Of a stretch of DNA of 64,000 nt, positions 33,953 to 58,674 are shown piece after piece; the first letter of the stretch is position 1; every line of letters starts with the position of its first letter. The stretch comes from Plantactinospora soyae (GTDB lineage Bacteria; Actinomycetota; Actinomycetes; Mycobacteriales; Micromonosporaceae), in contig NZ_JADBEB010000001.1 of NCBI RefSeq assembly GCF_014874095.1, positions 5,704,001 to 5,768,000 of the forward strand. Reading direction: 5' to 3'. The position numbers and the translations under genes were made by a program. The notes under the pieces are model-generated. The model had not been told where the DNA came from, made no database searches, and was given only the letters and a program-made list of their open reading frames with translations.

Positions 33953-35203
33953 TTGGCAGTCGATCACGCCTGGGCGCCGACCGCCGGCGGCAGTAGAGGG
34001 CGGACCGGTGACCGCCGGGTGGCGGGCCTGGACGGGCTTCGTGGCCTGGCCGCCCTGTACGTGCTGGTCCACCACTGCTGGTTGCTGACCTTTCCGGGGT
34101 ACCCGGCCAACACCGGCCCGGACTGGCTCGGCTGGCTGGTGCACGGCCGCCTCGCCGTCGTCGCCTTCATCGTCCTGTCGGGCTTCTCGCTCGCGATCTC
34201 GCCGGCCCGCGACGGATGGCGGCTGGGCGGCGTGCTGCGGTTCGCCCGGCGGCGCGCTCGGCGAATTCTGCCGCCGTACTGGCTGGCGCTGGTGCTCAGC
34301 TGCGTGATCGCGAGCGCCGTGCCGTCGTTGCCACTCAGTGCGCCACCGTCCCTGGGATCGGTCGTCGTCTACGGGTTGCTGCTCCAGGACGTCGTCGCGG
34401 CACCGGCCCCCAACGGCGCGTTCTGGTCGATCGCGGTGGAGGCGGGCCTGTACCTGACGTTCCCGGTCCTGCTCCTGATCCGTCGGCGGGCCGGCGCGGT
34501 GGCGACCCTCGCCGTGGTCACCGTGTCGGTGGTCGTGATCGGCCTGCTCTGGCCGTCGGTCTCCACTACGGCCAAGGCCACCGGGTACACACTGGAGCTC
34601 GCCCCGCTGTTCACGCTCGGCGTGCTGGCCGCCGGGGTGGTCGCCGCCCCCGGGTGGATCCGTCGCCTGCCGTGGCCCGGGCTGGCCGCGCTGGCGGCCG
34701 CGCCGGTGCTGCTGCTGGTGGCCGGCCAGGGTTCGGTCTGGACGGTGCGGCACTACTACTGGGTGGACCTCGCGGCCGGTCCGGCGATCGCCCTGCTCCT
34801 GGCCGCCGTGGCCACCCGCCGGCCGGCCCTGCTGGTCCGGCTGCTGGACAGTCGGCCGCTGCGGGCGCTCGGCGGGTTCTCCTTCAGCCTCTACCTGATC
34901 CACCTGCCGATCGTCGCGCTGGTCGGCCGTCGCCTCGTGGCGCCGTACGTTGTGCCCGGACTGCCGGCGTTCTGGGCCACGCTCGTGGTGACGGTGCCGA
35001 TCTGCCTGATCGCGGCCCGGGTGCTCGCGGCGCTCGTCGAGACTCCGTTCCAGCGGCCCGGTCCCGGGAGCCTGGAACGAGGGATCGAAGATCAGGAGCG
35101 TTATTCGCACCGTCCACGGTGGCGCCGGCGGTCGATCGTCATTGCCGTCCAAGCCTTTTGTTGCTACGGACAAAAGTGTGGGTTGTTCCGTCGAAAGATC
35201 TAG
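33953..35203 (+). CDS. Acyltransferase family 3 membrane protein
   Basis: A 416-residue multi-pass O-acyltransferase of the OafA/YrhL family. The N-terminal signature is AGLDGLRGLAALYVLVHHCW, with the catalytic His at 40-41, and about ten membrane helices follow (for example VVAFIVLSGFSLAIS and FSLYLIHLPIVALVG). Such enzymes acetylate surface polysaccharides, peptidoglycan or secondary metabolites. TTG at 33953 has GAGGAG 6 nt upstream; it follows the propeller gene by 49 nt and may share its operon. The last 14 codons run across the upstream element of the next operon's promoter. Confidence 0.85.
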   Translation: MAVDHAWAPTAGGSRGRTGDRRVAGLDGLRGLAALYVLVHHCWLLTFPGYPANTGPDWLGWLVHGRLAVVAFIVLSGFSLAISPARDGWRLGGVLRFARRRARRILPPYWLALVLSCVIASAVPSLPLSAPPSLGSVVVYGLLLQDVVAAPAPNGAFWSIAVEAGLYLTFPVLLLIRRRAGAVATLAVVTVSVVVIGLLWPSVSTTAKATGYTLELAPLFTLGVLAAGVVAAPGWIRRLPWPGLAALAAAPVLLLVAGQGSVWTVRHYYWVDLAAGPAIALLLAAVATRRPALLVRLLDSRPLRALGGFSFSLYLIHLPIVALVGRRLVAPYVVPGLPAFWATLVVTVPICLIAARVLAALVETPFQRPGPGSLERGIEDQERYSHRPRWRRRSIVIAVQAFCCYGQKCGLFRRKI

Positions 35204-35230
35204 ACATGTCGACGGCAAGACGGTTAGGGT
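35162..35230 (+). promoter_or_regulatory. Promoter and conserved upstream element of the DUF1080/multicopper oxidase operon
   Basis: TGCTAC (35162), AAAAGT (35172) and CGAAAGATCTAGACAT (35192-35207) are followed by a -10 TAGGGT (35225-35230). TAGACA (35201-35206) serves as -35, with an 18-bp spacer. The same elements occur at 55013-55076, with the same 20-bp phasing between AAAAGT and CGAAA. Two independent copies before functionally related genes make this a credible promoter plus operator. Confidence 0.7.
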
Positions 35231-35560
35231 CGGACAACATCAGCAGGTTTCATCGAGGTAACCGGCGGCGCGGTTAGCTCACCGTCTGAGAGTTCCGGCA
35301 GGACCGGGGGAGAACGCTCCCCGGGTCGGCGGTGCCCGCAGACCCGCCCCGGCGCGGCCCCCGCGCCGATCATCCGCGTACCTCCGAATCGACACACTCT
35401 GTCCACACGCCAGCCCCGACGGGCGGGCAGCCGCAACCCCGGACCCACCCATCGCGGACCGAGCCGGTGTGCGGTCTGTCGCCATGTCATCCGTCGATCC
35501 ACGCGAAGCCCCCTACGGGTCGGCGACGTTCCCGCACGACTCGCGAAAGGTGTGTTCGAC
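35204..35560. other. 357-bp leader region of the copper/DUF1080 operon
   Basis: If transcription starts near 35237, the first gene has a leader of about 320 nt. It contains a strong stem, GACCGGGGGAG with CTCCCCGGGTC (35302-35327, one mismatch, 4-nt loop). I do not recognise a known riboswitch, and there is no convincing short reading frame. Confidence 0.4.
35302..35327 (+). promoter_or_regulatory. Leader hairpin
   Basis: GACCGGGGGAG (35302-35312) pairs with CTCCCCGGGTC (35317-35327) over 11 positions with one mismatch and an AACG loop. It lies about 65 nt into the predicted leader and could affect translation, processing or transcript stability. Confidence 0.35.
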
Positions 35561-38500
35561 ATGCCAGCTCTTTCCGCGCGATGTGGCCCGGCACGGCGCC
35601 CGCGGCTGCTCACCCGGCTCAGCACGGGCCGGCGCAGCCGACCGATGAGGATGCTCGCGGCAATGGCCGTCCTGCTCGCCGGCTCCGCGCTCCTCGCCGT
35701 ACCGGCCGGCGCCCGCCCTGCCGACTCCGGGTCGACGACGTCCGGCGGCGCGTCGGCCGGGCAACTCCAGGCCCAGGTGCTCACCTGGACGGCCGGCGAC
35801 AGCGTCCAGTCGTACGTCTCCGCGCCCACCACCGCCGTCGCGGGGCCGACCACCCTCGTCTTCGAGAACAGCGCCGCAACCGGCAACACCAGCGGCATGC
35901 AGCACACCCTCACGTTCGACACGGGCAGCACCGAGTACAACCGCGACGTGGTCGTCGACATCCTGGCCGACCCGTTCGACGCCAACCAGGGCCGGTGGAC
36001 CCTCGACGTGGTGCTCACCGCCGGCACCTACCGCTACTTCTGCGCGATCCCCGGACACGGCACGATGACCGGGCTGCTCGTCGTCAGCGGCGGTGACCAG
36101 GACACGACCCCGCCGACGGTGACCGCGGCGGTCACCGGTGAGCAGAACGACGACGGCGCGTACGTCGGCGCCGCCACGGTGACCCTCTCCGCCACCGACA
36201 CCGGATCGGGCGTCGGCCGGGTCGAGTACGCGGTGGACGGCGGCCCGTACGGCACCTACTCCGCTCCGGTGACGGTGAGCGCGCCGGGGCAGCACACGGT
36301 GACGTACCGGGCCACGGACGTGGCGGGTAACACCTCTGCGGTGCAGTCGGCGGCCTTCGAGGTGGTGGCGCCGTCGGATCCGGACACCACCGCGCCGACG
36401 GTGACCGCCGCGGTGACCGGTGAGCAGAACGAGGACGAGGCGTACGTCGGGATGGCGACGGTGACCCTGTCGGCCACCGACGCCGGATCCGGGGTGGAGC
36501 GGGTCGAGTACTCGCTCGACGGTCAGGCGTACGCCGCTTACTCCGCTCCGGTGACGGTGAGCGCGGCCGGGCAGCACACGGTGACGTACCGGGCCACGGA
36601 CGTGGCGGGTAACACCTCTGCGGTGCAGTCGGCGGCCTTCGAGGTGGTGGCGCCGTCGGATCCGGACACCACCGCGCCGACGGTGACCGCCGCGGTGACC
36701 GGTGAGCAGAACGAGGACGAGGCGTACCTCGGGATGGCGACGGTGACCCTGTCGGCCACCGACGCCGGATCCGGGGTGGAGCGGGTCGAGTACTCCCTCG
36801 ACGGGCAGGCGTACGCCGCTTACACCGCTCCGGTGATGGTGCACCAGCCGGGCCGGCACACGGTCAGCTACCGCGCCACCGACGAGGCGGGCAACACCTC
36901 CGCCCCGCAGTCCGTCGCGTTCGAGGTGGCCGACACGTCGACTCCGGACACCACCCCGCCGACCGTGACCGGCGGGGTCACCGGCGACCGCGACGACAAC
37001 GGCGGGTACCTCGGTGCCGCCACGGTGACCATCTCCGCCACCGACACCGAATCGGGTGTCGAGCGGGTCGAGTACTCCCTCGACGGGCAGCCGTACGCGG
37101 CGTACACCGCCCCGGTGACCGTCAACACGCCCGGCCAGCACACCGTCGACTACCGGGCCACCGACGAGGCGGGCAACACCTCCGCCCCGCAGTCCCTCGC
37201 GTTCCAGGTGGTCGAGCGGCCGAACCCGGACACCACCGCGCCGACCGCGACCGCGACCGTCGCCGGCAACCGGGACGGCACCGGGGCCTACCTCGGTGCG
37301 GCCACCGTCACGGTCTCCGCCACCGACGCCGGATCGGGCGTCGGCCGGGTCGAGTACTCCCTCGACGGCCAGCCGTACGCCGAGTACACCGCTCCGGTGA
37401 CGGTCAACCAGCCCGGTCAGCACACCGTCTCGTACCGGGCCACGGACGTCGCCGGCAACACCTCCACCCCCGGCTCGGTCTCGTTCACCGTGGCCGCCCC
37501 GCCCAACGCCGACACCACCGCCCCGACCGTGAACGCCGCGCTGACCGGGCAGCAGGACGGAAGCTGGGCGTACGTCGGCAGCGCCACCATCGTGCTCACC
37601 GCCGCCGACACCGGATCCGGTGTCCACCGCGTCGAGTACGCCCTGGACGGGCGGGGCTACACCGTCTACTCCGGACCGGTCACCGTCAACACCCCCGGTG
37701 CGCACACGTTCAGCTACCGGGCCACCGACAAGGCCGGCAACGTCTCGGGGACCGCCTCGGCGACGTTCACGGTGGTGGAGAGCAGGCCGCCGGCGCCGAC
37801 CTGCCAGGTGACCGACACCCGGCCGACGGTCTGGCTCGGCACGCTCAACAGCGGTGTGCCCAGCCGGGTGGTCGAGGGCCGCTGCTCGATCAACGATCTG
37901 ATCGACGACGAGCGGGCCTGGCCGAGCCACAGCGAGTTCGTGGAGCACGTCCGGGCGATCGCCGAACGCCTGCACCACCGGGGCCAGATCCTGCTCAGGG
38001 AGCAGAACGCCCTGGTACGCACGGCCCGTGAGTCCGCTGTCGGCAAGTCCGAGCAGAAGCAGGGCTACCTGCCGCTGCTCGACCGCTCCGCCGCCTCGTT
38101 CAAGCTGTGGGAGCAGGTCGGTGCCGGCGGCTTCCGGCGCAACGCCGACGGTTCGGTCACCAGTCGGGCCGTCGACGGCCTCGGCATGCTCTGGTTCCCG
38201 GTCCGCACCTACGGCGACTTCTCCCTCAAGCTCCAGTGGCGCGACGACGCCCCCGGTGACGGCCGCGCCAACAGCGGGGTCTTCGTCCGCTTCCCCCAGG
38301 TGCACCAGCACCCGCAGGAGTCCCGCCCCGAGTGGGTGGCCATCAAGTACGGCCACGAGCTGCAGATCTACGACCGCACCGACGGCGACCCGTACAAGAG
38401 CGGGTCGGTGTACGGATTCGACCGGGTCGACCTCGACGGCGCACAGGTCGCCCCGAAGGGCACCTGGAACGACTACGAGATCCGCGTCGTCGGCCAGCAC

Positions 38501-38695
38501 TACTCGGTGTTCCGCAACGGCAAGCTGCTCAACGAGTACGTCAACGTTCCCGGAGCCGTCTTCACCCCGCCCCGCGCCGACGATCCCGGCGGCGCCGGCC
38601 GCCAGCACCCGAGTGGCTTCGTCGGCCTGCAGAACCACGGCGTCGGGGACATCGTCAGCTTCCGCAACATCAGGATCGCCCCGCTGACCCCGTGA
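35561..38695 (+). CDS. Secreted cupredoxin - six Ig-like (OmpL47-type) repeats - DUF1080 hydrolase
   Basis: A 1044-residue secreted protein. A signal peptide (MLAAMAVLLAGSALLAVPAG) precedes a cupredoxin domain (about 70-178) with a complete type-1 copper set: His115, Cys161, His166 and Met169 (GMQHTLTF; FCAIPGHGTM). Six 94-residue Ig-like repeats of OmpL47 type follow (181-745; VTLSATDxGSGVxRVEYxxDG). Then comes a small domain with two cysteines (748-827, INDLIDDE) and a C-terminal 3-keto-disaccharide hydrolase fold (831-1044; NSGVFVRFP, NDYEIRVVGQHY, FVGLQNHG). It is the first gene of an operon with a multicopper oxidase and a sugar dehydrogenase. ATG at 35561 is preferred over GTG at 35552. 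Confidence 0.85.
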   Translation: MPALSARCGPARRPRLLTRLSTGRRSRPMRMLAAMAVLLAGSALLAVPAGARPADSGSTTSGGASAGQLQAQVLTWTAGDSVQSYVSAPTTAVAGPTTLVFENSAATGNTSGMQHTLTFDTGSTEYNRDVVVDILADPFDANQGRWTLDVVLTAGTYRYFCAIPGHGTMTGLLVVSGGDQDTTPPTVTAAVTGEQNDDGAYVGAATVTLSATDTGSGVGRVEYAVDGGPYGTYSAPVTVSAPGQHTVTYRATDVAGNTSAVQSAAFEVVAPSDPDTTAPTVTAAVTGEQNEDEAYVGMATVTLSATDAGSGVERVEYSLDGQAYAAYSAPVTVSAAGQHTVTYRATDVAGNTSAVQSAAFEVVAPSDPDTTAPTVTAAVTGEQNEDEAYLGMATVTLSATDAGSGVERVEYSLDGQAYAAYTAPVMVHQPGRHTVSYRATDEAGNTSAPQSVAFEVADTSTPDTTPPTVTGGVTGDRDDNGGYLGAATVTISATDTESGVERVEYSLDGQPYAAYTAPVTVNTPGQHTVDYRATDEAGNTSAPQSLAFQVVERPNPDTTAPTATATVAGNRDGTGAYLGAATVTVSATDAGSGVGRVEYSLDGQPYAEYTAPVTVNQPGQHTVSYRATDVAGNTSTPGSVSFTVAAPPNADTTAPTVNAALTGQQDGSWAYVGSATIVLTAADTGSGVHRVEYALDGRGYTVYSGPVTVNTPGAHTFSYRATDKAGNVSGTASATFTVVESRPPAPTCQVTDTRPTVWLGTLNSGVPSRVVEGRCSINDLIDDERAWPSHSEFVEHVRAIAERLHHRGQILLREQNALVRTARESAVGKSEQKQGYLPLLDRSAASFKLWEQVGAGGFRRNADGSVTSRAVDGLGMLWFPVRTYGDFSLKLQWRDDAPGDGRANSGVFVRFPQVHQHPQESRPEWVAIKYGHELQIYDRTDGDPYKSGSVYGFDRVDLDGAQVAPKGTWNDYEIRVVGQHYSVFRNGKLLNEYVNVPGAVFTPPRADDPGGAGRQHPSGFVGLQNHGVGDIVSFRNIRIAPLTP
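36109..37785 (+). repeat. Six tandem coding repeats of about 282 bp
   Basis: Direct repeats encoding the Ig-like domains. Copies 1 to 3 are nearly identical over long stretches at the DNA level (compare 36261-36500 with 36543-36782, offset 282 bp), while copies 4 to 6 have diverged. This pattern suggests recent expansion or gene conversion at the start of the array. Confidence 0.8.
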
Positions 38696-38739
38696 CGCCG
38701 GCACCGCACGCCGTCTGATCCCGCCCACCAGCGCCATCG

Positions 38740-40017
38740 GTGCTAGCCGAGCGATTGGATAGAACGTTGGACAAGGAAACGAACGACATCGGCGGGGTCG
38801 TGCTCCCGCCGCCCGCCGGCGGGTCGGATCCCCGCCCGGCGTCGCCGGGCCGGCTGCTCGGCACCGGCGCCGGCCGGGCCGTCCTGGTGGCGGCCGTTAT
38901 GTTGGTGACGCTCGTCGGCGCGGGCGGGCTGGCCCTGGCCGGCGGCACCACCGCCCGGCCGGCCGAGCGGGCGGTCGAGGCCGCTCCGGCGGCCCGCTCG
39001 GCGGAGCGGCCGGAGGGCTGTGTGACGCCGGACCGCCGGTTGCAGCTGTACGCGGTCGAGCTACCCAAGGACCCGGTGACCAACCAGGTACGCCTCGGCT
39101 ACGGCCTCACCCCGCAGACGGCCTCCTATCCGGGGCCGACGATGGAGATGATCGAGGGGGAGTGCCTGGCGATCACCCTGCACAACCAGGTGCCGGCCGC
39201 GACCCTGGAGCAGCTGCGCACCGATGCCGCGCATCCGATCGGCGTCTCGCTGCACGTGCACGGCGTCAAGTACACCCAGATGTCCGACGGCACCGTGCAC
39301 AGCAACTCCTTCGTGCCGCCGGGCGGGTCGCGGACGTACGTCTGGTTCGCCAAGCCGCGTACGGCGACGTCGCCGGGTACGGCCGGCTACTGGTGGTACC
39401 ACGACCACGTCGTCGGCGGGCCGCACGGCACCCAGGGGCTCCGCTCCGGGCTGTTCGGCGGTCTCGTGGTACGCCGGCAGGGAGATACCCGGCCCGACCG
39501 GACCTACGTGACGGCCTTCGGCGACCGGCAGACCATCAACCTGCGGCGCAGCGCGGAGGCGGACACCTGTGATCCGGTGAATCCGCAGCCCGGCCCGACC
39601 TGCCTGGTCGCCAAGGTCGGCGAGCGGGTCGAGTTCATCGTGATCGGCATCGGCGACGACATGCACACGTTCCACGTGCACGGGCACTCCTGGGCGGACA
39701 CCCGGACCGGCATGGTGGAGGGCGCCAACAAGGCGCTGATCGACTCGATTCCGGTCATCGACAACAAGACTCTCGGCCCGGGTGACACCTTCGGCGTGCA
39801 GTTCGTCGCGGGCGACTCGGTGGGGCCGGGGCACTGGATGCTGCACTGCCACATGCAGTTCCACTCCGACCTGGGCATGTCGACGACGTTGCACGTCCTC
39901 GACGAGAACGGGCAGATGATGCCGCACGCCGGTAGCCACACCCCGTCCGCACCGGCCCAGAACGCGCCGGCGCAGAAGGCACCGGCACAGGGCGCAGCGC
40001 ACCCGAACCACCGCTGA
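38740..40017 (+). CDS. Membrane-tethered multicopper oxidase
   Basis: A 425-residue protein with one N-terminal membrane helix (AVLVAAVMLVTLVGAGGLAL) after a 45-residue cytoplasmic stretch, then two cupredoxin domains. The trinuclear-site motifs are H172-V-H174 (SLHVHGV), H221-D-H223 (WWYHDHV), H309..H312-V-H314 (HTFHVHGH) and H369-C370-H371...H375 (LHCHMQFH), which also supplies the type-1 copper. It should reduce O2 to water with electrons from phenols, metals or a redox protein. The cupredoxin in the preceding gene is a plausible partner (inference). The start is uncertain: GTG 38740 or TTG 38767. The tail is an Ala/Pro/Gln-rich low-complexity run. Confidence 0.85.
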   Translation: MLAERLDRTLDKETNDIGGVVLPPPAGGSDPRPASPGRLLGTGAGRAVLVAAVMLVTLVGAGGLALAGGTTARPAERAVEAAPAARSAERPEGCVTPDRRLQLYAVELPKDPVTNQVRLGYGLTPQTASYPGPTMEMIEGECLAITLHNQVPAATLEQLRTDAAHPIGVSLHVHGVKYTQMSDGTVHSNSFVPPGGSRTYVWFAKPRTATSPGTAGYWWYHDHVVGGPHGTQGLRSGLFGGLVVRRQGDTRPDRTYVTAFGDRQTINLRRSAEADTCDPVNPQPGPTCLVAKVGERVEFIVIGIGDDMHTFHVHGHSWADTRTGMVEGANKALIDSIPVIDNKTLGPGDTFGVQFVAGDSVGPGHWMLHCHMQFHSDLGMSTTLHVLDENGQMMPHAGSHTPSAPAQNAPAQKAPAQGAAHPNHR

Positions 40018-40095
40018 TCCGGAGCACCCACACCTCGACCCCGACACCTCTGCCATCGCCCGAAGGACTCTTCGTACCCCCTCTGAGGAGGAGAA

Positions 40096-43000
40096 ATGGC
40101 TCACCGACGCCATTTTTTCCAGCTGTCCCGATCGGTCGGGCGGCAACGTCCCGGCCCCGTCGACCTACCGTCCCCCGCGCTCGGCCCCGTACCCCGGCGT
40201 CGCGTCGCCGGACCGTTCCGCCGTGCGGTCGCGCTGGCCTCGGGCGCCGTACTCACGCTCGGTCTGTTGAGCGCGCCGGTCGCCGCCGCCCCGGACCAGA
40301 GCGTCGGCGCGGTCGCACCGGCCTGGACCGGTCGGGCCGTGAACGTCCTGGTCTTCCACGGCCCGGCCGCGTCCCAGGACGACCCGGTCGCCAAGGCCGT
40401 CAGCAGCATCCGCAAGCTGGGCAACGAGAACGGCTTCACCGTCCACGACTCCGACGACCCGTCGGTCTTCACTCCTGACAACCTGGACCGCTACCGCAGC
40501 GTGGTGTTCCTGTCGGCCAACGGGGTGACGCTGAACGACACCCAGGAGGCGGCGTTCCAGGCGTACGTCAAGGGTGGCGGCGGCTTCGTCGGAATCCACG
40601 ACGCCGCCCGCGCGCAGCCCGGCTCCGAGTGGTTCACCGGTCTGATCGGCACCCGTCCGGCGGCGACCCTGCCGAACGCGGAGAAGATCGCGAGCGTCAC
40701 GGCCAGCGGCGGCAACCCGCCGAACGAGGTCGTCGAGAACCTGATCGACGGGGCGACCGGAACCAAGTGGCTGACCCGTACGCCGACCGGCTGGGTGGTT
40801 GCCAAGCTCGCCGAGCCGAAGGCCATCGCGCAGTACGCGCTGACGTCGGCGAACGACTTCCGGGGCCGCGACCCGAGGGACTGGACCCTGCAGGGGTCGG
40901 CCGACGGCACCACCTGGACGGACCTGGACCGCCGGACCGGGGAGACGTTCTCCCAGCCGTTCCAGACGAAGCAGTACACGTTCACCAACACCCAGGCGTA
41001 CCAGCACTACCGGCTGAACATCACCGCGAACAGTGGTGAGCCGCTGATCCAGCTCGCCGAGCTGTGGCTGATCGGCCCGGACGCCGGACCCGCACCGGAG
41101 AGCAAGGTGCAGGAGGCCGTGGTCGCCGTGGTCGACCGGCAGCACCCGGCGAACAAGGGCCTGCCGCTGAACTGGACCCGGTCCGACCAGTGGATGAACT
41201 GGGACCCGAGCCCGGTCGGCCGGGTGCACACGATCGCCCAGGTCAAGGAGAACACCTACCAGGCGGGGCTGGGTGGCAACGGCGCGTTCCACCCGATCTC
41301 CTGGTGCCGGGACTACGACGGCGGTCGGTCGTTCTACACCGGCATGGGACGCACCGAGGCCAGCTACACCACCGACACCCAGTTCCGGGGCCACCTGCTC
41401 GGCGCCCTCCAGTGGACGACGGGCATGGTCCGCGGCGACTGCCAGGCGACCATCGCGGCCAACTACAAGATCGAGCGGTTGACCGCCACCAACCAGTCCG
41501 GTCAGCTCGACCAGATCGGTGAACCGCACGGCCTGACCATCGCGCCGGACGGCAAGGTCTTCTACATCGGCAAGGCCGCCTGCCCGACCGGGCCGGTCGC
41601 CGACTGGGCCAACCCGAACGTGGGTCTGGGCTGCGGCACGATCCACCAGTGGGACCCGAAGAACAAGCAGGTCAAACTGCTGACCACGCTCAAGGTCATG
41701 GGCAACCGGGGCAGCGGCAGCGAGCTGGTGAAGAACGAGGAGGGCCTGGTCGGGATCACACTCGACCCGAAGTTCGCGGAGAACGGCTGGTTCTACGTCT
41801 ACTGGATGCCGCACGAGTCGATCGACCGGGAGCGGCGGGTCGGCCAGCGTACGGTCTCCCGGTTCACCTACGACCACGGGCAGCAGTCGATCGACCAGGG
41901 CACCCGCAAGGACCTGCTGCACTGGGACACCCAGATCCACAGCTGCTGCCACGCCGGCGGCGGAATGACCTTCGACGAGTCCGGCAACCTCTACATCGGC
42001 AGCGGTGACAGCAACTCCTCCGGCGGGTCGAACGGCTACTCCGGGAACAACTGGACCCAGGAGTACGCGGGCATCTCGTTCCAGGACGCCCGTCGTACCT
42101 CCGGCAACACCAACGACCTGAACGGCAAGATCCTCCGCATCCACCCCGAGCCGGACGGTACGTACACGGTTCCCGGCGACAACCTCTTCACCGGCCAGGA
42201 GCAGGGCGGCGGCAAGACCCGGCCGGAGATCTACGTGATGGGCGTCCGGAACATCGCCCGGATCGCCTGGGACCCGGTCAACGACTGGCTCACCGCAGCC
42301 TGGGTCGGCCCGGACGCCGGCGCCCCGAGCCCGGAACTCGGTCCGGCGAAGTACGAGACCGCCACGGTCATCACCTCGGCGGGCAACCACGGCTGGCCGT
42401 ACTGCATGGGTAACCGGCAGCCGTACCGGGACCGCAGCAGCACCGACGCCACCGTGCTGACCGGCTGGTACGACTGCGACAACCCGAAGAACGAGTCGCC
42501 GCGCAACACCGGTCTGGTCAACCTCCCGCCGGTGCGGGACAACATGATCTGGTACTCGCCGCAGGGTGGCGGGCCGATCTTCCCGAAGCGTGCCGACGGC
42601 AGTGGCCTGCCGACCTACAAGGCCGAGGACGCCACCTTCACCCAGCCGTACGTGAGCGGCGGCGGCCAGGCCATCATGGACGGCCCGACGTACCAGCGCT
42701 CGAAGGTCGACGTGAACAGCGGCGTGGCCTGGCCGGCGTACTGGGACAACAAGTGGTTCATCGGCGACCAGTCCAACGCCAACAACCGGATCGCCGTCAC
42801 CGTCGACCCGGGTACGGCCCGGGAGGCCGGGGCGCCCGCCTTCGCCGAGGACCTGCGCAGCATCATTCAGGGCGGCAACGGTGCGAGCCAGCTCCAGTCC
42901 TGGATGGACGCGAAGTTCGGGCCGGACGGCGCGCTCTACATGCTCGACTACGCCAGCGGCTTCTTCAGCCTCCATGCGAACCAGAAGCTGGTCCGGATCA

Positions 43001-44169
43001 CGTACCAGGGTGGCCAGGCCACTCCGAACCCGGGTCTGGCGACGGCGCAGTCGGTCACGCCGAGCCAGCCCCGGACCATCGGGTTCTCCGCGGCCAAGGT
43101 CGGCGGTGTGGCCTGGGAGTGGGACTTCGGCGACGGCAGCAAGGTGTCGACCGCGGCCCACCCGACGCACACCTACAAGCGGTACGGCACCTTCGCCGCG
43201 ACGCTGAAGGTGACGTACGCAGGTGGTGAGGTGGTCACCGGGAAGGTCGACGTCAACGCCGGCTGTGGTGCCGCCGACGCGCGGCCGACGGTCTGGATGC
43301 TGGACAGCGACACCGGGGTGGCCAACCGGCAGGCCGGTGGCGGCTGCACGATCAACGACCTGATCGACGACGAGACGACCTGGCCGAACAGGGCCTCGTT
43401 CGTCACCCACCTCGACGGGGTGCTCGCCGAGCTGAGCGCGGCGCACGTCATCGACAACCGCGAGGCGACGACGCTGCGTCGGGCCGGGAAGCAGTCTCCG
43501 ATCGGCGCCACCAACGGCTACCAGCCGATCTTCGACGGTTCGGCGAAGTCGCTCGCCGGCTGGCGCCAGGCACCCAGCGGGTCGTTCTCACTTCGGCCCG
43601 ACGGCTCCATCCGCAGCGCCGGTGGCCTCGGCATGCTGTGGTACGCGGACCAGCAGCTCGCCGACTACTCGATCAAGGTGCAGTTCCGCGACATCTCGCC
43701 GGAGAACGTCCGGGCCAACAGCGGAATCTTCGTCCGGTTCCCGGATCCGAGGACCCCGCTGAACCAGCGTCCGGCGGGCAGTTGCGGCACGCTGGGGTCG
43801 GCCCGTAGTTCCCAGGCCTGGGTCGCGATCTACTGCGGTCACGAGATCCAGATCTACGACGGCGAGACAGGTGAGCCGCAGAAGACCGGCTCGGTCTACA
43901 ACTTCGCGCCGAACACCCTGGACAAGGCCGGGGCGACGCCGAAGAACCAGTGGAACGACTACGAGGTCCGCGTGGTCGGCCAGCACTACACGATGATCCG
44001 TAACGGTGTGGTGATCAGCGAGTTCGACAACACACCGGGCAAGCAGTCGTCCCGCCAGGGCGACCCGTCCACCGATCTGCGGCAGTTCCTGAGCGGTTTC
44101 GTCGGGTTGCAGAACCACGGCACCAACGACCTGATCGAGTTCCGCAACATCAGGGTGCGCCAGCTCTGA
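40096..44169 (+). CDS. Secreted ThuA - F5/8C - PQQ-type sugar dehydrogenase - PKD - DUF1080 protein
   Basis: A 1357-residue secreted enzyme assembly with ATG at 40096 and an AGGAGGAG ribosome site. Order: signal peptide (about 35-60); ThuA glutamine-amidotransferase-like domain (82-180, VNVLVFHGP, resuming 333-455, GLPLNWTRSDQWMN) split by an inserted F5/8-type-C domain (199-332); glucose/sorbosone dehydrogenase propeller (474-972) with SCCHAGGGMTFDESGNLYIGSGD; PKD domain (995-1054, WEWDFGDG); a two-cysteine domain (1057-1138, GGGCTINDLIDDE); and a DUF1080 hydrolase (1142-1357, FVRFPD, NDYEVRVVGQHY). ThuA and DUF1080 are both linked to 3-keto-sugar metabolism in known systems. The protein may oxidise and hydrolyse glycosides outside the cell. 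Confidence 0.87.
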   Translation: MAHRRHFFQLSRSVGRQRPGPVDLPSPALGPVPRRRVAGPFRRAVALASGAVLTLGLLSAPVAAAPDQSVGAVAPAWTGRAVNVLVFHGPAASQDDPVAKAVSSIRKLGNENGFTVHDSDDPSVFTPDNLDRYRSVVFLSANGVTLNDTQEAAFQAYVKGGGGFVGIHDAARAQPGSEWFTGLIGTRPAATLPNAEKIASVTASGGNPPNEVVENLIDGATGTKWLTRTPTGWVVAKLAEPKAIAQYALTSANDFRGRDPRDWTLQGSADGTTWTDLDRRTGETFSQPFQTKQYTFTNTQAYQHYRLNITANSGEPLIQLAELWLIGPDAGPAPESKVQEAVVAVVDRQHPANKGLPLNWTRSDQWMNWDPSPVGRVHTIAQVKENTYQAGLGGNGAFHPISWCRDYDGGRSFYTGMGRTEASYTTDTQFRGHLLGALQWTTGMVRGDCQATIAANYKIERLTATNQSGQLDQIGEPHGLTIAPDGKVFYIGKAACPTGPVADWANPNVGLGCGTIHQWDPKNKQVKLLTTLKVMGNRGSGSELVKNEEGLVGITLDPKFAENGWFYVYWMPHESIDRERRVGQRTVSRFTYDHGQQSIDQGTRKDLLHWDTQIHSCCHAGGGMTFDESGNLYIGSGDSNSSGGSNGYSGNNWTQEYAGISFQDARRTSGNTNDLNGKILRIHPEPDGTYTVPGDNLFTGQEQGGGKTRPEIYVMGVRNIARIAWDPVNDWLTAAWVGPDAGAPSPELGPAKYETATVITSAGNHGWPYCMGNRQPYRDRSSTDATVLTGWYDCDNPKNESPRNTGLVNLPPVRDNMIWYSPQGGGPIFPKRADGSGLPTYKAEDATFTQPYVSGGGQAIMDGPTYQRSKVDVNSGVAWPAYWDNKWFIGDQSNANNRIAVTVDPGTAREAGAPAFAEDLRSIIQGGNGASQLQSWMDAKFGPDGALYMLDYASGFFSLHANQKLVRITYQGGQATPNPGLATAQSVTPSQPRTIGFSAAKVGGVAWEWDFGDGSKVSTAAHPTHTYKRYGTFAATLKVTYAGGEVVTGKVDVNAGCGAADARPTVWMLDSDTGVANRQAGGGCTINDLIDDETTWPNRASFVTHLDGVLAELSAAHVIDNREATTLRRAGKQSPIGATNGYQPIFDGSAKSLAGWRQAPSGSFSLRPDGSIRSAGGLGMLWYADQQLADYSIKVQFRDISPENVRANSGIFVRFPDPRTPLNQRPAGSCGTLGSARSSQAWVAIYCGHEIQIYDGETGEPQKTGSVYNFAPNTLDKAGATPKNQWNDYEVRVVGQHYTMIRNGVVISEFDNTPGKQSSRQGDPSTDLRQFLSGFVGLQNHGTNDLIEFRNIRVRQL

Positions 44170-44175
44170 GCGAGG

Positions 44176-44212
44176 GGTGCCGGATACGGGAGCGACTCCC
44201 GTATCCGGCACC
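44176..44212. terminator. Bidirectional terminator, perfect 17-bp stem
   Basis: GGTGCCGGATACGGGAG (44176-44192) and its exact complement (44196-44212) around a CGA loop, in the 73-bp gap between the convergent ThuA/DUF1080 and response-regulator genes. Confidence 0.8.
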
Positions 44213-44242
44213 TGCACCGTCTGGCGCGACCTTCCGCAGCCG

Positions 44243-44872
44243 TCAGTGCTGTGCCGAGAGGTAGCCACGGGAGAACGCGGTGGCCACGGCTGCCGCCCGG
44301 TCGTTGACGCCGAGCTTGGCGTACACGTGCAGCAGGTGGGTCTTGACCGTCGCCTCGCTGATGAACAGCTGTTTCGCCGCCTCGCGGTTGGTCGAGCCCC
44401 GGGCGATCAGCGCCAGTACCTCCAGTTCACGCTGTGACAGCGGTTCCGAGGCCGGCTGTCGTATCTGGCCCATGAGCCGGGTGGCGACGGCGGGGGAGAG
44501 TACCGCCTGTCCCCGGGCGGCCGCCTCGACCGCGCGGAACAGTTCGTCCCTCGGCGCGTCCTTGAGCAGGTAGCCGGTGGCGCCGGCCTCGATGGCGGGC
44601 AGGACGTCGCTGTCGGTGTCGTACGTGGTGAGCACCAGGATCCGGGCCGGCACACCGCGTCTGGCCAGTTCCTTGATCGCGGTGACCCCGTCGGTCCTCG
44701 GCATCCGCAGGTCCATCAGGATCACGTCGGGTTGGAGCCTTTCTCCGGCAGCGATGGCCTCGGCGCCGTCGCCGGCCTCGCCGAGCACGTCGAAGCGCGG
44801 ATCGGCGCTGAACATGCCCCGCAACCCGTCCCGGACCACCGGGTGGTCGTCGACGATCAGTACTGAGATCAA
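44243..44872 (-). CDS. NarL/FixJ family response regulator
   Basis: A 209-residue regulator: receiver domain (1-120) with acidic pocket LIVDDHP and phospho-acceptor Asp in VILMDLRMP, conserved Thr (VLTTYD) and Lys (LLKDAP), then a LuxR-type helix-turn-helix (LSQRELEVLALIARG, TVKTHLLHVYAKLGV). TTG at 44872 overlaps the kinase stop by 4 nt (TTGA) and has AGGAGG upstream. It probably controls its own ABC-exporter operon, perhaps at the inverted repeat 47894-47913. Confidence 0.92.
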   Translation of the reverse strand: MISVLIVDDHPVVRDGLRGMFSADPRFDVLGEAGDGAEAIAAGERLQPDVILMDLRMPRTDGVTAIKELARRGVPARILVLTTYDTDSDVLPAIEAGATGYLLKDAPRDELFRAVEAAARGQAVLSPAVATRLMGQIRQPASEPLSQRELEVLALIARGSTNREAAKQLFISEATVKTHLLHVYAKLGVNDRAAAVATAFSRGYLSAQH

Positions 44873-46149
44873 TCCGTACCTCCTGCGGGGATTGCCGGCA
44901 CGATCGCCGAGATCGCCGTTCCGCCACCGGGCTCGGACTCGATTTCCAACCGGCCCGCGAGGCGCTGCGCCCGCTGCCGCATGCCGGCGAGCCCGAACCC
45001 GCCGTTCGCGGACCCGTTGGTGCGCTTGGCACCCGGCTCGAAGCCGATCCCGTCGTCCCGTACGTCGAGAGTCACCAGGTCCTCCATGTATGACAGGGTC
45101 AGGCCGACCCGGCTGGCCCGGGCGTGTTTGGCCACGTTGGCGAGTGCCTCCTGCGCGGTCCGCAGCAGCGCCACCTCGACGTCGGTGTGCATCGGCCGGG
45201 CGTCGCCGGTGGTGGTCAGCACCATGTCGATCTGGTGCACCTCGGCCCAGCGCCGGGCCACCTCGTTGATCGCGTCCGGCAGCCGGGCCTCGGCGAGCAT
45301 GGACGGCTCCACCGCGTGGACCGTCCGGCGGGCCTCGGTGAGGCTCTCCCGGGCCAGGTTCATCGCGTTCGTCACGTGCCGGCGTGACGTCGACGGATCG
45401 CCCAGGGTCTGCTCGGCCGCCTGTAGCTGGGTGAGGATTCCGGCGAGGCCCTGGGCGAGGGTGTCGTGGATCTCCCGTGCCATCCGCTGCCGCTCGTCGA
45501 GCACCCCGGCCTCGCGGGCCTGGACCAGCAGTTGCGCGTGCAGGCCGGCGTTCTCCGCCAGCGCCGCCTCCAGCTTGACGTTGGCCTCGTGCAACTCGAC
45601 CAGCGCCCGCTTCTGCTTGTGGTTGCGCTGGTCGGCCAGCTCGGCGAAGTGGAAGAACGCCCCGGCCAGCAGGATGCTGACCAGGCTGACCGCGATCCAC
45701 TCTCCCCACGCTCCCGCGATGATCTCGGCGGCCCCACCCAGGTACCCCACCGCCGAGATCGTCGCCGTGGCGGTGACGCCGGCATAGCGCCAGCGGCCCT
45801 GCAAATACACGATCGCCTGGGGGTAGCCGACGAAGGTGAAGAGCGCGTAGATCGGTGCGACCGCGACCAGCCCGGCGGCCAGCACCATCAGGCCCGTGTA
45901 GTACAGCCCCATCAGCGGGCGGTTCTGGTGCCACTGCGGATGGAGGGTGTGGAACCAGAGCAGCCAGAGCGTGGCCGCGGGCGCCAGCCCGAGCACGGTC
46001 GGGACGTGCACCGGCATGTCCCAGGTCGGCTGGAGCAGCGTGAGGAGGGTACTGGCCGCCAGGAGGAGGTACGGCAGGACCTTGAAAAGCGCGATCTCCT
46101 TGCGCTCCCAGCGGTCGAACTCCTCGCGCAGCTCCGCCTCGATGCTCAT
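44869..46149 (-). CDS. Sensor histidine kinase (HisKA_3/DesK-LiaS type)
   Basis: A 426-residue kinase with about five to six N-terminal membrane helices, a coiled-coil linker (ADQRNHKQKRALVELHEAN), the phospho-acceptor motif MAREIHDTLAQGLAG and a HATPase_c domain (EALANVAKHARAS, VRDDGIGFEP, GGFGLAGMRQRA). There is no large external loop, so it probably senses the membrane or the transporter itself, as kinases coupled to ABC exporters do. ATG at 46149 lies 4 nt after the permease stop and has GGGAG upstream. Confidence 0.9.
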   Translation of the reverse strand: MSIEAELREEFDRWERKEIALFKVLPYLLLAASTLLTLLQPTWDMPVHVPTVLGLAPAATLWLLWFHTLHPQWHQNRPLMGLYYTGLMVLAAGLVAVAPIYALFTFVGYPQAIVYLQGRWRYAGVTATATISAVGYLGGAAEIIAGAWGEWIAVSLVSILLAGAFFHFAELADQRNHKQKRALVELHEANVKLEAALAENAGLHAQLLVQAREAGVLDERQRMAREIHDTLAQGLAGILTQLQAAEQTLGDPSTSRRHVTNAMNLARESLTEARRTVHAVEPSMLAEARLPDAINEVARRWAEVHQIDMVLTTTGDARPMHTDVEVALLRTAQEALANVAKHARASRVGLTLSYMEDLVTLDVRDDGIGFEPGAKRTNGSANGGFGLAGMRQRAQRLAGRLEIESEPGGGTAISAIVPAIPAGGTD

Positions 46150-46894: not shown

Positions 46895-46904
46895 GATGTT
46901 CTCC

Positions 46905-48143: not shown

Positions 48144-48176
48144 GGCCATGTTGGTTGAACGGGAAGCGGGGATTAC

Positions 48177-48578: not shown

Positions 48579-48582
48579 TCCC

Positions 48583-48615: not shown

Positions 48616-48625
48616 GAGCGGCGGG

Positions 48626-48665: not shown

Positions 48666-48745
48666 TTGCCGTCCCCCACCGGAACCGACATCAGATATAG
48701 GATCCCGTCGCAGGCCGGGCGCGACGGGCACTCGGAAGGATAGGA

Positions 48746-52281: not shown

Positions 52282-52304
52282 TCCGGCGTCGTCGGGTAGG
52301 TGTG

Positions 52305-52344
52305 CAGACGGTGGGCCGGGCCCTCCGGCCCGGCCCACGGTCTG
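52305..52344. terminator. Bidirectional terminator
   Basis: GTGGGCCGGGCC (52311-52322) with its complement (52327-52338) around CTCC, extended after a G/G mismatch by CAGAC/GTCTG: an 18-position stem. It sits in the 135-bp gap between the convergent permease and penicillin-acylase genes. Confidence 0.8.
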
Positions 52345-52416
52345 TCCTACGCCATCGTGGTCATCGCTCCCGGTGTCCGAAAGCGGGTCGCCGATGGGCC
52401 CTTCCCTGCCGACCCG

Positions 52417-54678: not shown

Positions 54679-55215
54679 GGGTGGGCCCACCTTTCTCGGG
54701 GGTCGTGAGATCGTGCCGGGGCGTCGAGGGCGGCCGTACCCGGCGCCGGGGCAGTCCGGCGCGTCGAGGGGGAGGAGCGCCACGGCGAGCGGCAGGGCTT
54801 CATGATCATCACCACCATAGGTCAAGGTGACGCGGTCCGGAACCGCCTCGGCCGCGAGGATCTCGACCGTGACCGGAAGCGCTTTGTGTGGTTAGGACGG
54901 CGTCGGTGGTGATCTGGCCGTCTTGTCGGCCTGCCGACACCGTGGCCCCGGACCCGTACGGCGGGTCGACGCGCTGCCCGACATCGGTGGCGGATATCGC
55001 GCTTTTGCTGAGTGCTACAAAAGTTAGAGCGTTCGCGACGAAACATCTAGACATCCAAACGTAACGATCGTAGGGTTTGCCTCGCCAGGCAGCGGCGTGC
55101 CCGGTCAGCTACAGGACGCAACGACGTCGTCCGATCGGCCATCACGGTGCGCCCTCGAGCGGTCTGCCGTGCCCGTGTCGGTGCGGCGTCGTCCCGCTCA
55201 CCCCTGGGAGGAAAC
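54679..55215. other. 537-bp divergent intergenic region
   Basis: The gap between the acylase gene (minus) and the PA14/DUF1080 gene (plus). It holds the conserved promoter block at 55013-55076 and a GGGAGGAAAC ribosome site just before 55216. Nothing clear was seen for the acylase promoter. Short open frames on both strands lack coding character. Confidence 0.5.
55013..55076 (+). promoter_or_regulatory. Promoter and conserved upstream element of the PA14/DUF1080 gene
   Basis: TGCTAC (55013), AAAAGT (55019) and CGAAACATCTAGACAT (55039-55054) are followed by -10 TAGGGT (55071-55076). TAGACA (55048-55053) is the -35 box, with a 17-bp spacer. It matches the block at 35162-35230, with the same 20-bp phasing of AAAAGT and CGAAA. 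Confidence 0.7.
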
Positions 55216-58200
55216 GTGTTCCTACCGTCCCGACGAGCGCGTACGCCGATTCTGGGCGTGGTCGCCACCGCGCTCGCCATCGCGGCCGTGTGCCTGCCGG
55301 CCGCCAGCGCGACGGCCGCGCCGCCGCCACAGGAGCCCGGCGTCACGTTGCGGGTCTTCGACCTGCAGGTGCCGCTGAACAACCTCTGCACCCTCAAGGC
55401 CGCCCAGACACCCAACGTCGACAAACTCATGTCGACGGTCAACTGGACGAGCGCGGCGGACTTCGGCTTCGAGAACTACTTCATGGCCCAGGTCCTCGGC
55501 AACATCAACATTGCCCAGGCCGGCAGCTACACCTTCCGGTTGCTCAGTGATGACGGATCCCGACTGCTGATCGACGACGCCGTCGTCGTCGACCACGACG
55601 GGCTGCACGGACCGGACCCGAAGGACGGCACGGTCGACCTCACCACCGGCTACCACTCGCTGCGGATCGAGCACTTCGAGCGCGACGGCGGCCAGCAGTT
55701 GACGTTGCAGTGGCGCACGCCCGGCTCGACGTCGTTCGTGACCGTCCCCAACTCGGTGCTGAGCACCGACGCCGGGGTGGTCCGGGTGACGGCGCCCGGC
55801 CGCAAGGAGTGCGAGGCCAGCGGTGACTCGCCCGGTGACGGGCTGCCGCTGACCGCCGTACATCCCAACTACACGCTGACGAACCTGCGGCCCAGCGGCT
55901 TCGAGCCACAGGTCACCGGCTTCGACTGGCTTCCGGACGGGCGCCTCGCGGTGCTCACCTGGGGCGGCACGCTGACCACCGCCGGCGAGGTCTGGCTGCT
56001 GGGCAACGTCACCGGCAACACCAGCCCGGCCCAGGTGACCCGGACGAGGGTGGCCAGCGGGCTCCAGGAGCCGATGGGCATCAAGGTCGTCGACGGCAAA
56101 ATGTACGTCTCGGAGAAGCACCGGCTGACGGAGCTCAACGACACCAACGGCGACGGGGTGACCGACAACTACCGGACCGTGGCCACCTGGCCGTTCGGCG
56201 CCAACTTCCACGAGTTCGGCTTCGGGCTGCTCTACGCCGACGGGTTCTTCTACCTCAACCTCTCGGTGTCGATCAACTACGGCGGCAACACCACCAACCC
56301 GCAACCGGCGGGGAACCGGGGTACCACCATCAAGGTGAACCGGACGACCGGCGCGGTGTCGTACGTGGCGGGCGGACTGCGTACCCCGCACGGGATCGGC
56401 TGGGGGCCGGAGAACGGGCTCTTCGTCACCGACAACCAGGGCGGTTACCAGCCGGCGTCCAAACTGCTGCACATCAAGCAGGACCGGTTCTTCAACCACT
56501 ACCTCAACCCGGCCGGGCCGTTCGACAACAACCCGGTGACCCAGCCGGTCATCTGGTTCCCGCAGAACGAGATCGGCAACTCGCCGAGTACGCCGGTGAT
56601 GATGACCCAGGGCGTCTTCGCCGGGCAGATGGCGATCGGCGACGTGACGTACGGTGGCCTCCAGCGCGCGTACCTGGAGAAGGTCAACGGTGAGTACCAG
56701 GGTGCGCTGTTCCGGATGACGCAGGGGCTCGAGGCCGGCGTCTCCGAGGTCAGCCTCGGCCCGGACGGCGCCCTCTACACCGGCGGCCTGCACGGCGGCG
56801 GAAACTGGGGCCAGGAGGGCAAGCTCAGCTTCGGCCTGCAGAAGATCGCCCCGAACGGCAGCGGCAACTTCGACATGCTGGCGATGCGGGCCCGGTCGAA
56901 CGGGTTCGAGATCGAGTACACCAAGCCGCTCTCGGCGGCGACCGCGACCGCGCTGGCCTCGAAGTACCGGGTCAAGCAGTGGCGGTACGTCGCGACCGCC
57001 GCCTACGGCGGACCGAAGATCGACGAGGAGACGCTCTCGGTCTCCTCGGCGACGCTCTCGGCCGACGGCAAGAAGGTCACCCTGGTCGTCAACGGGCTCA
57101 AGGCCGGCCGGGTCGTACACGTCCGCTCGCCCCGGCCGTTCAGCGCGAGCGACGGCCAGGCGCTCTGGAGCACCGAGGTCTGGTACACCCTCAACGCCAT
57201 CCCGGGCCAGGTGCCGGCGGTCAACCTGGCCCTGGGCAGGCCGGCCACGGCCGACAGTTCCTGCTCGGCGACCGAGGGCCCGGCGAAGGCGGTCAACGGG
57301 ACCACCACCTCGGGGAACCTCGACAAGTGGTGCTCGACGGGAACCAACAGGTGGTTGCAGGTCGATCTGGGCTCGACCCAGAGCGTGAACCGGGCCGTCG
57401 TCGCGCACGCGGGCGCCGGTGGTGAGGTCGCCTCCTGGAACACCCGCGACTTCGCCGTCCAGGTCAGCACCAACGGCACCACCTGGAGCACGGTCGCGAA
57501 CGTCACCGCGAACACCGCGAGCACCACCACGCACACCTTCGCGGCGACCCAGGCCCGGTACGTCCGCCTCGCCATCACCACGCCGAGCAACGACGGCGGC
57601 AACGCGGCCCGGATCTACGAGTTCGAGGTGTACGGCGGTGCCGCCCCGCCATCGGCCAACCTCGCGGTGGGGCGGCCGGCGACGGCGGACAGTTCCTGCT
57701 CCACGGCCGAGGGACCGTCGCAGGCGGTCAACGGCAGCGTTACCGGCGGCAACGGCGACAAGTGGTGCTCGCTCGGCGCCACCAAGTGGTTGCAGGTCGA
57801 CCTCGGCACCACCCAGAGCCTGAACCGGTTCGTGGTCCGGCACGCGGGTGCCGGTGGTGAGGTCGCCGCCTGGAACACCCGCGACTTCGCCGTCCAGGTC
57901 AGCACCAACGGCACCGCCTGGAGCACGGTCGCGAACGTCACCGGCAACACGGCGAACGTCACCACCCACGACATCCCGGCCACCCAGGCCAGGTACGCGC
58001 GACTGAACATCAGCGCGCCGACCAGCAACACCGACAACGCGGCGCGGATCTACGAGTTCGAGGCGTACGGCCCCGGCGGCACCCCCGGCCGGATCACGCT
58101 CTTCGACGGGTCGAACATGAACAACTTCCAGCAGGCCAACGGGGCCAACCCGACCTGGCCGCTGGGCAACGGCGGGGTGGAGGTGCTCGGCGGCGACATC

Positions 58201-58674
58201 CGGAGCCGGCAGAGCTTCGGTGACTTCAAGCTGCACGTCGAGTTCTGGCTGCCGAACCTGCCGGCGGACGTCACCGGGCAGGCCCGGGCGAACAGCGGCA
58301 TCTACCTCCAGGACCGGTACGAGTTGCAGGTGCTCGACTCGTACGGCGACACCACTCCCGCCACCAACGAGTGCGCCGCGATCTACGAGAAACTGGCGCC
58401 GAGGGTGAACGCCGCGACCGCGCCGCAGACCTGGCAGACGTACGACGTGACGTTCCGCGCCGCCCGGTTCAACGCCGCCGGGGCCAAGACGGAGAACGCC
58501 CGCGTCACCGTGGTGTGGAACGGGGTCACCGTGCACGAGAACGCCGAGATCAACGGGCCGACCGGCAACGGAGCGGCGGAGGGTCCCTCGGTGGGGCCGA
58601 TCCGGCTCCAGGACCACGGCGACCCCGGCCCCAACCTCTTCTACCGCAACATCTGGGTGGAGCCGATCAGCTAG
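55216..58674 (+). CDS. Secreted PA14 - sugar-dehydrogenase-like propeller - two F5/8C - DUF1080 protein
   Basis: An 1152-residue secreted protein. Order: signal peptide (ILGVVATALAIAAVCLPAA); PA14 domain (about 75-192; NIAQAGSYTFRLLSDDGSRL); a glucose/sorbosone-dehydrogenase-like propeller (212-662; GFDWLPDGRLAVLTWGG, GLQEPMGIKVVDGKMYVSE, RTPHGIGWGPENGLFVTDN); two F5/8-type-C domains (669-808 and 812-953, both containing PATADSSCS and KWCS); and a DUF1080 domain (959-1152; RITLFDGSNMNNF, ANSGIYLQDRYELQVLDSYGD). PA14 and F5/8C domains bind glycans. GTG at 55216 has GGGAGG upstream; the frame runs on to 55147. Shares its promoter type with the operon at 35.5 kb. Confidence 0.87.
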   Translation: MFLPSRRARTPILGVVATALAIAAVCLPAASATAAPPPQEPGVTLRVFDLQVPLNNLCTLKAAQTPNVDKLMSTVNWTSAADFGFENYFMAQVLGNINIAQAGSYTFRLLSDDGSRLLIDDAVVVDHDGLHGPDPKDGTVDLTTGYHSLRIEHFERDGGQQLTLQWRTPGSTSFVTVPNSVLSTDAGVVRVTAPGRKECEASGDSPGDGLPLTAVHPNYTLTNLRPSGFEPQVTGFDWLPDGRLAVLTWGGTLTTAGEVWLLGNVTGNTSPAQVTRTRVASGLQEPMGIKVVDGKMYVSEKHRLTELNDTNGDGVTDNYRTVATWPFGANFHEFGFGLLYADGFFYLNLSVSINYGGNTTNPQPAGNRGTTIKVNRTTGAVSYVAGGLRTPHGIGWGPENGLFVTDNQGGYQPASKLLHIKQDRFFNHYLNPAGPFDNNPVTQPVIWFPQNEIGNSPSTPVMMTQGVFAGQMAIGDVTYGGLQRAYLEKVNGEYQGALFRMTQGLEAGVSEVSLGPDGALYTGGLHGGGNWGQEGKLSFGLQKIAPNGSGNFDMLAMRARSNGFEIEYTKPLSAATATALASKYRVKQWRYVATAAYGGPKIDEETLSVSSATLSADGKKVTLVVNGLKAGRVVHVRSPRPFSASDGQALWSTEVWYTLNAIPGQVPAVNLALGRPATADSSCSATEGPAKAVNGTTTSGNLDKWCSTGTNRWLQVDLGSTQSVNRAVVAHAGAGGEVASWNTRDFAVQVSTNGTTWSTVANVTANTASTTTHTFAATQARYVRLAITTPSNDGGNAARIYEFEVYGGAAPPSANLAVGRPATADSSCSTAEGPSQAVNGSVTGGNGDKWCSLGATKWLQVDLGTTQSLNRFVVRHAGAGGEVAAWNTRDFAVQVSTNGTAWSTVANVTGNTANVTTHDIPATQARYARLNISAPTSNTDNAARIYEFEAYGPGGTPGRITLFDGSNMNNFQQANGANPTWPLGNGGVEVLGGDIRSRQSFGDFKLHVEFWLPNLPADVTGQARANSGIYLQDRYELQVLDSYGDTTPATNECAAIYEKLAPRVNAATAPQTWQTYDVTFRAARFNAAGAKTENARVTVVWNGVTVHENAEINGPTGNGAAEGPSVGPIRLQDHGDPGPNLFYRNIWVEPIS

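Follow-up and report, generated by a model that had tools for sequence, protein, structure and literature searches.

A small laccase gene with near-constant cupredoxin and ThuA-propeller gene partners in actinobacteria, and its possible place in extracellular sugar oxidation

Introduction

Why does a gene for a multicopper oxidase lie between two genes for large proteins that each end in a DUF1080 domain (PF06439), and might the three products act together? We address this question for a locus of Plantactinospora soyae, contained in a stretch of 64,000 nucleotides of contig NZ_JADBEB010000001.1 (assembly GCF_014874095.1, positions 5,704,001 to 5,768,000 of the forward strand), which we call the window. 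A preliminary description of this DNA had combined four of its proteins into one putative extracellular pathway for the oxidation of glycosides, with copper proteins carrying the electrons. Here, we show that three of the four genes, i.e., those encoding a cupredoxin-DUF1080 protein (P0001), a predicted small laccase of the SLAC type (P0002) and a ThuA-propeller-DUF1080 protein (P0003), form a genetic unit, and we weigh more tentatively what this unit may do.

Conservation of the three-gene unit

The three genes are arranged head to tail, all on the + strand, with intergenic gaps of 44 and 78 bases. P0001 (35552-38695, or from an ATG at 35561) encodes a secreted protein with a cupredoxin domain, six repeats, a module of ~85 residues and DUF1080; P0002 (38740-40017) encodes a predicted two-domain small laccase with an N-terminal hydrophobic segment; and P0003 (40096-44169) encodes a ThuA domain interrupted by an F5/8 type C domain, a propeller with the GSDH fold, a PKD domain, the ~85-residue module again and DUF1080. 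This arrangement confirms that a multicopper oxidase gene is present, on the same strand, between the first two DUF1080 genes, and that three long open reading frames of the window each have a C-terminal PF06439 domain (E = 3.3e-31 in P0001, 1.9e-33 in P0003 and 3.4e-35 in P0004, a more distant gene considered below).

Searching 121 Micromonosporaceae genomes with residues 66-970 of P0003, and counting as orthologs those matches with an E value printed as 0 (the raw tally of 91 includes weaker paralogs), we found a P0003 ortholog in 48 genomes. The SLAC gene is present in 47 of the 121 and the cupredoxin gene also in 47, and these 47 are identical; the genomes with a P0003 ortholog are the same 47 and one more, which is 69% complete (G005). 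Fisher tests of this co-occurrence over the 121 genomes gave 1e-34 and 5e-33, values that ignore shared descent and overstate the significance, since related genomes are not independent. Rearrangements of the locus and its uneven distribution inside genera argue better for a unit: in four genera (g4, g23, g30 and g44), presence is patchy and changes as a unit. When we examined 45 neighbourhoods of 16-18 kb, 44 contained matches to all three genes. The exception is in genome G008, which has a lone P0003 ortholog (L034) plus a complete second set (L070); at L040, one of the 44, the SLAC gene inside the fetched stretch is 12 kb upstream and another is located past the other end of that stretch. 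Extra SLAC copies occur in three genomes (G053, G072 and G088), with the copy on contig C3 of G072 located away from the trio.

The same pattern extends beyond the family. In a sample of 346 genomes of the phylum, all three genes are present in the same seven, i.e., that of the window itself and six of one genus in the same class. Fourteen further SLAC-positive genomes of this sample belong to other classes, and the other two genes were unmatched in them at the thresholds used; the partners are absent at the nine loci fetched from these 14 (L063-L069, L072 and L073), of which L065-L067 end at contig ends. We also analyzed named loci, taking the best 80 of at least 577 relatives, a set that overlaps in species with the other genome sample. 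These 80 loci come from 28 genera, including Micromonospora, Streptomyces, Amycolatopsis, Nonomuraea, Cellulosimicrobium, Georgenia and Jiangella; SLAC is near the P0003 gene in 78, and all three genes are together in 74. At least five gene orders and orientations occur; writing S for SLAC, G for ThuA-GSDH and C for cupredoxin, they are S>G>C (41 loci), S<G>C (20, one with a double SLAC), C>S>G (7), C<S>G (4) and G>C>S (2), with the trio staying together. Two loci contain neither partner: L076 starts at a contig end, with 1.2 kb of sequence ahead of the match, and L078 lacks both despite about 6 kb of upstream sequence, which counts against a unit. The cupredoxin gene is absent at L080, L121 and L139, where contigs end, and at L114 without such a cause. 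The co-occurrence of cupredoxin-DUF1080, multicopper oxidase and ThuA-GSDH-DUF1080 genes is very strong in the family genomes, the phylum sample and the named loci, as the preliminary description would lead one to expect, and the trio is a genetic unit with near-strict joint inheritance and adjacency.

Domain composition of the three proteins

P0001 has a signal-like N-terminus and, at about residues 60-180, a cupredoxin domain whose best solved relative is auracyanin A (E = 6.3e-6); its match to PF00127 (E = 0.0016, 19.3 bits) is below the cut-off of 21.2. The complete type-1 copper site previously noticed in this protein is real at the level of its ligands, since the His, Cys, His and Met are invariant in 14 of 14 aligned sequences, and the ligand pattern is found in all 127 cupredoxin matches obtained from 134 loci (7 loci gave no match). 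Blue-copper proteins that have Met among their ligands normally carry one electron. Residues 184-747 consist of six repeats, each exactly 94 residues long; Pfam identifies them as Ig-like and NCBIfam as an OmpL47-type beta-barrel, of which Ig-like is probably the better label and the beta-barrel name misleading. DUF1080 itself spans residues 849-1042. The ~85-residue module that precedes DUF1080 in P0001 (37787-38070), in P0003 (43246-43530) and in their relatives contains two conserved Cys and a motif around C-x-V-x-D-x-R-x-TVW ... GC-TINDLI-x-DE, and had no Pfam match at E values up to 10.

P0002 aligns end to end, over both cupredoxin domains, with SLAC structures (E about 1e-62). Among solved structures, the 50 closest to it (E up to 1.1e-59) carry the names two-domain laccase, small laccase or (putative) copper or multicopper oxidase, whereas large laccases and ceruloplasmin come next, with E 1e-8; judged by its sequence, P0002 is a two-domain small laccase of the SLAC type. 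It contains the motifs HVHG, HDH and HVHGH and, in domain 2, the type-1 motif HCHxxxHxxxxM. In SLAC matches from 131 loci, HxHG, H(D/W)H and HCHxxxHxxxxM are present in all 131 and HxHGH in 74, with a looser form of this third His motif, FHxHxH, present in 121 of the 131 aligned segments and absent from 10. Small laccases have been crystallized and engineered for about two decades. The type B two-domain multicopper oxidases are described as trimers with type-1 copper in a central tunnel (PMC13151041), and small laccases, with SCO6712 as the SLAC gene, have been studied as oxidases of phenolic compounds (PMC3918160), their natural role being still debated (PMC5675413; PMC13151041).

In P0003, the ThuA domain (PF06283) is unambiguous (E = 3.4e-56, 191 bits against a cut-off of 33.4). 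The propeller (41431-43020) matches GSDH with E = 5.3e-20, and its AlphaFold2 model, of moderate quality (pLDDT 68, pTM 0.80), matches the fold of sugar dehydrogenases dependent on pyrroloquinoline quinone (PQQ), with Z of 32.9 to 3a9g and 30.4 to 3das, the aldose dehydrogenase of S. coelicolor; Z to the AA12 structure 6h7t is 22.2. The propeller keeps the catalytic His (H144 of soluble glucose dehydrogenase, sGDH) and an Arg-Asn pair (Arg228-Asn229 in sGDH numbering), and the motifs CCHxGG and YVMGxRN occur in 134 and 130 of 134 propeller loci, respectively. At the position of the former catalytic His, Cys-Cys-His is present in all 134 loci and in a Paenibacillus relative, and Ser-His in a Runella relative.

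The DUF1080 domains of the window score 109, 117 and 122 bits against PF06439, where the curated score is 26.8. Their fold matches the 3-keto-glycoside eliminase/hydratases 8rr2, 9fbe, 8tda and 8v31 (Z 20.2-20.8, root-mean-square deviation 2.7-3.0, 198-199 residues aligned), matches that mainly cover the DUF1080 part. Conserved elements are E-x-Q-x-x-D, NSG, WN and Q-x-HG; within what sequence can show, the jelly-roll fold and the polar residues of the solved eliminase/hydratases are retained, in keeping with the cleaving role earlier proposed for this domain. Given a further resemblance to CBM66, a sugar-binding module (Z 16), DUF1080 may instead only bind sugar. A DUF1080 protein has been proposed to act with the periplasmic lactose 3-dehydrogenase of Caulobacter (PMC9007349).

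The Streptomyces counterpart

In the Streptomyces locus, SLAC points away from the ThuA-GSDH gene, which is followed by the cupredoxin-repeats-DUF1080 gene; four named Streptomyces loci among the best 80 have another gene order. The SLAC inside the trio of S. violaceorubidus (L149) is nearly identical to 9nji and 3cg8 (E = 2e-220), both of which we take to be S. coelicolor SLAC. Similarity and gene order suggest that SCO6711 is the ThuA-GSDH gene and that genus g50 of our genome set is Streptomyces. A LacI-family regulator, of a type typical of sugar genes, adjoins SLAC in S. fungicidicus (L056, 7591-8619), with a relative in 17 of 26 further Streptomyces loci. Two Streptomyces loci (L057 and L059) each contain one palindrome of the form ATACCC-N3-7-GGGTAT (up to 2 mismatches) just behind the DUF1080 end. 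In one study, SCO6710 is given as a glycosyl hydrolase under putative CsoR repression, and its transcript is halved in cultures grown from copper-loaded spores (PMC6414726); the glycosyl hydrolase label, and its place two from SCO6712, fit the cupredoxin-DUF1080 gene, which SCO6710 would then be.

Surroundings of the unit

The fourth protein of the pathway as first drawn, P0004 (55147-58674, + strand), is composed of PA14, a propeller, two F5/8 type C domains and DUF1080, and is encoded 11 kb downstream, beyond a two-component system, ABC transporter genes and a penicillin amidase. Its supposed dehydrogenase-like propeller gave only a sub-threshold match to DUF7133 (19-22 bits, cut-off 27). 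Propellers of this type are present in 62 of the 121 Micromonosporaceae genomes, 18 of which lack the trio, and three trio genomes lack such a propeller (Fisher 7e-15 for association with the trio). By eye, the propeller is within 20 kb of the trio in the window genome (G000), G104 and G119, and it is 11 kb from the lone P0003 ortholog in G008. With 18 of 62 propeller genomes lacking the trio, the association is only loose, and we rejected P0004 as a member of the unit.

Our search for sigma-70-type promoters found none in 35000-45000, and the promoter/terminator scan returned five terminator-like sites against 2.3 expected, none of them between the trio genes. Upstream of the trio, at 31968-33903, a sigma-70 region 2/4 gene resembling those of the extracytoplasmic function (ECF) type overlaps the start of a gene with a weak BNR/sortilin assignment; these two are possibly a regulator and its partner.

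Discussion

What might this unit do? We read the trio as one extracellular redox unit for glycoside oxidation, a reading that we consider quite possible though a little short of probable, and for which we infer the substrate, the C3 chemistry, the cofactor and the order of partners. The P0003 propeller would oxidize a (poly)glycoside outside the cell, probably at C3, and ThuA and DUF1080 would handle the resulting keto-sugar, with the DUF1080 domains of P0003 and P0001 cleaving or hydrating the 3-keto-glycoside. Electrons from the propeller would pass singly to the blue-copper domain of P0001, carried on a long Ig-like stalk and tethered by a sugar-binding DUF1080 end, and the cupredoxin would hand them to the type-1 copper of SLAC P0002, where O2 would be reduced to water. 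We favor an electron chain because the cupredoxin has two constant partners, an oxidase that reduces O2 with four electrons and a protein with a dehydrogenase fold, one Bacteroidota relative of which has a fused cytochrome c; DUF1080 together with ThuA points to 3-keto-sugars. The LacI-type regulator of the Streptomyces loci also speaks for this reading. The earlier proposal of copper and sugar proteins as one system is strongly supported as a genetic unit of three, but unproven as a pathway; its remark that it knew of no such joined system agrees with our search, in which no report linking a small laccase with ThuA, DUF1080 or cupredoxin was found in the accessible parts of the open-access literature.

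Several observations weigh against this reading. The propeller fold of P0003 is shared by HHIP (Z 28.5), which is not known to be an enzyme. Taking His144 and the PQQ-binding arginines of sGDH as reference (PMC6881789), the sequence alignment places Met at the position of R408 in all 133 loci with the anchor motif (of 134) and Arg at the position of R406 in only 1 of the 133. The corresponding RLR is retained in five canonical GSDH paralogs (three of the window genome, two of Streptomyces genomes); the Runella and Paenibacillus relatives also lack these arginines and, by our reading of the alignment, have Val at the Met position. Among 32 carrier genomes, pqqC is present in 2 and pqqB in 3, and the window genome has no match to either, despite 19 GSDH (PF07995) matches. 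This loss of the C-terminal PQQ-binding arginines, together with the rarity of pqqC and pqqB, makes a PQQ assignment doubtful; externally supplied PQQ is possible, given that a PQQ-bound actinobacterial structure, 3das, exists. What had been described as ThuA plus a PQQ-type sugar dehydrogenase thus stands for ThuA and for the fold, but two PQQ arginines are replaced and the genes for PQQ synthesis are rare. Furthermore, the activity studied in small laccases is the oxidation of phenolics (PMC3918160), the tie of SCO6710 to copper control fits a copper-related role (PMC6414726), and the pca genes close to the Streptomyces locus would suit a function with aromatic compounds in that genus. A bolder version of our reading, which we regard as unlikely, would place the actinobacterial SLAC at the end of a copper-wired chain of extracellular sugar oxidation, as its terminal oxidase in nature and not as a phenol oxidase, with a PQQ-free propeller whose pocket may hold another, possibly metal, cofactor; the PQQ-free idea is based on the invariant Cys-Cys-His, which includes the former catalytic base, and on the invariant Met that replaces a PQQ-binding Arg.

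Alternatively, and in our view somewhat unlikely, SLAC could be a true laccase, with ThuA, the propeller and DUF1080 opening extracellular phenolic glycosides or lignin-carbohydrate linkages, SLAC polymerizing or detoxifying the released phenol, and the cupredoxin serving SLAC or a side reaction. Phenolics are indeed substrates of small laccases (PMC3918160), and in S. fungicidicus a pca gene group (protocatechuate breakdown) starts 5-7 kb from the trio locus. Of 26 further Streptomyces loci, several of them too short to reach that far, 8 contain pcaH or the CoA-transferase gene of this group. However, three pca-group queries gave no match in 107 loci outside Streptomyces, and the constant blue-copper protein would be left unexplained. 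We consider decidedly unlikely a copper or oxidative-stress module, in which SLAC and the cupredoxin would oxidize copper outside the cell or buffer it, with the sugar domains as mere glycan anchors: the putative CsoR repression of SCO6710 and its halved transcript from copper-loaded spores (PMC6414726) and the CBM66 likeness of DUF1080 are consistent with it, but ThuA and the propeller would have no explanation, and the identified neighbours include no gene for a copper ATPase, CopZ or CsoR. The palindrome given above for Streptomyces is, at up to 2 mismatches, absent from the 64-kb window and scattered in related loci, and CsoR-type copper operators were rejected as the control of the trio.

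That the propeller-cupredoxin pair feeds lytic polysaccharide monooxygenases (LPMOs), with SLAC as a competing sink, appears very unlikely. The C. cinerea pyranose dehydrogenase, a fungal AA12 enzyme, does drive an LPMO (PMC5960967; PMC6881789), and an LPMO_10 gene is present in 47 of 47 carriers; since it is present in 111 of the 121 genomes, carriers or not, this overlap is uninformative, and it is SLAC that stays constant as a partner. Joint inheritance of genes that have no common function, as a mobile block or an ancient one held by descent, strikes us as highly improbable. The locus sets share species and related genomes cannot be counted as independent, but gene orders and strands vary while the trio persists, patchy presence in the four genera changes as a unit, and, of ten other genes that neighbour the trio in Streptomyces, none is present at the 107 loci outside that genus, save one ligD-like match in L105. 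As for the redox unit that we prefer, if it is true an extracellular copper relay would be added to the known routes of oxidative sugar breakdown, and the near-obligate partnership makes the natural role of the small laccase directly testable in S. coelicolor.

Comparison with known systems

P0002 is alike over both domains to Streptomyces SLAC and the type B two-domain multicopper oxidases (3cg8, 3tas, 5lhl and 4m3h). In the parts of the literature accessible to us, however, Streptomyces SLAC is described as a stand-alone phenol/dye oxidase and its gene neighbours are unmentioned, whereas P0002 has constant gene partners. The DUF1080 domains of the window share with the PF06439 family (BT2157 and kin) an above-gathering score, the fold and the E-x-Q-x-x-D, NSG, WN and Q-x-HG elements; the characterized members have one such domain each, with a proposed role beside other dehydrogenases such as LacABC (PMC9007349), unlike the fusions to a cupredoxin (P0001) or to ThuA-GSDH (P0003) seen here.

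For the propeller, a protein of Runella (L074; Bacteroidota; GSDH-PKD-cytochrome c-CBM6) belongs to the same group and, as in P0003, contains PKD behind the propeller, but a fused cytochrome c replaces the cupredoxin and none of the 8 annotated features around L074 is a laccase. With its cytochrome c and CBM6 fused behind GSDH-PKD, it shows that the propeller group includes at least one protein built together with an electron carrier. The fungal AA12 pyranose dehydrogenase CcPDH (AA8 cytochrome-AA12-CBM1) likewise combines, as we propose for the trio, an extracellular six-blade propeller with an electron carrier and a sugar-binding module (PMC6881789). A search for cytochrome domains at E values up to 0.01 found none in the four window proteins; compared with CcPDH, the trio has a separate blue-copper protein rather than a cytochrome b, a laccase as constant partner, an altered PQQ site and DUF1080.

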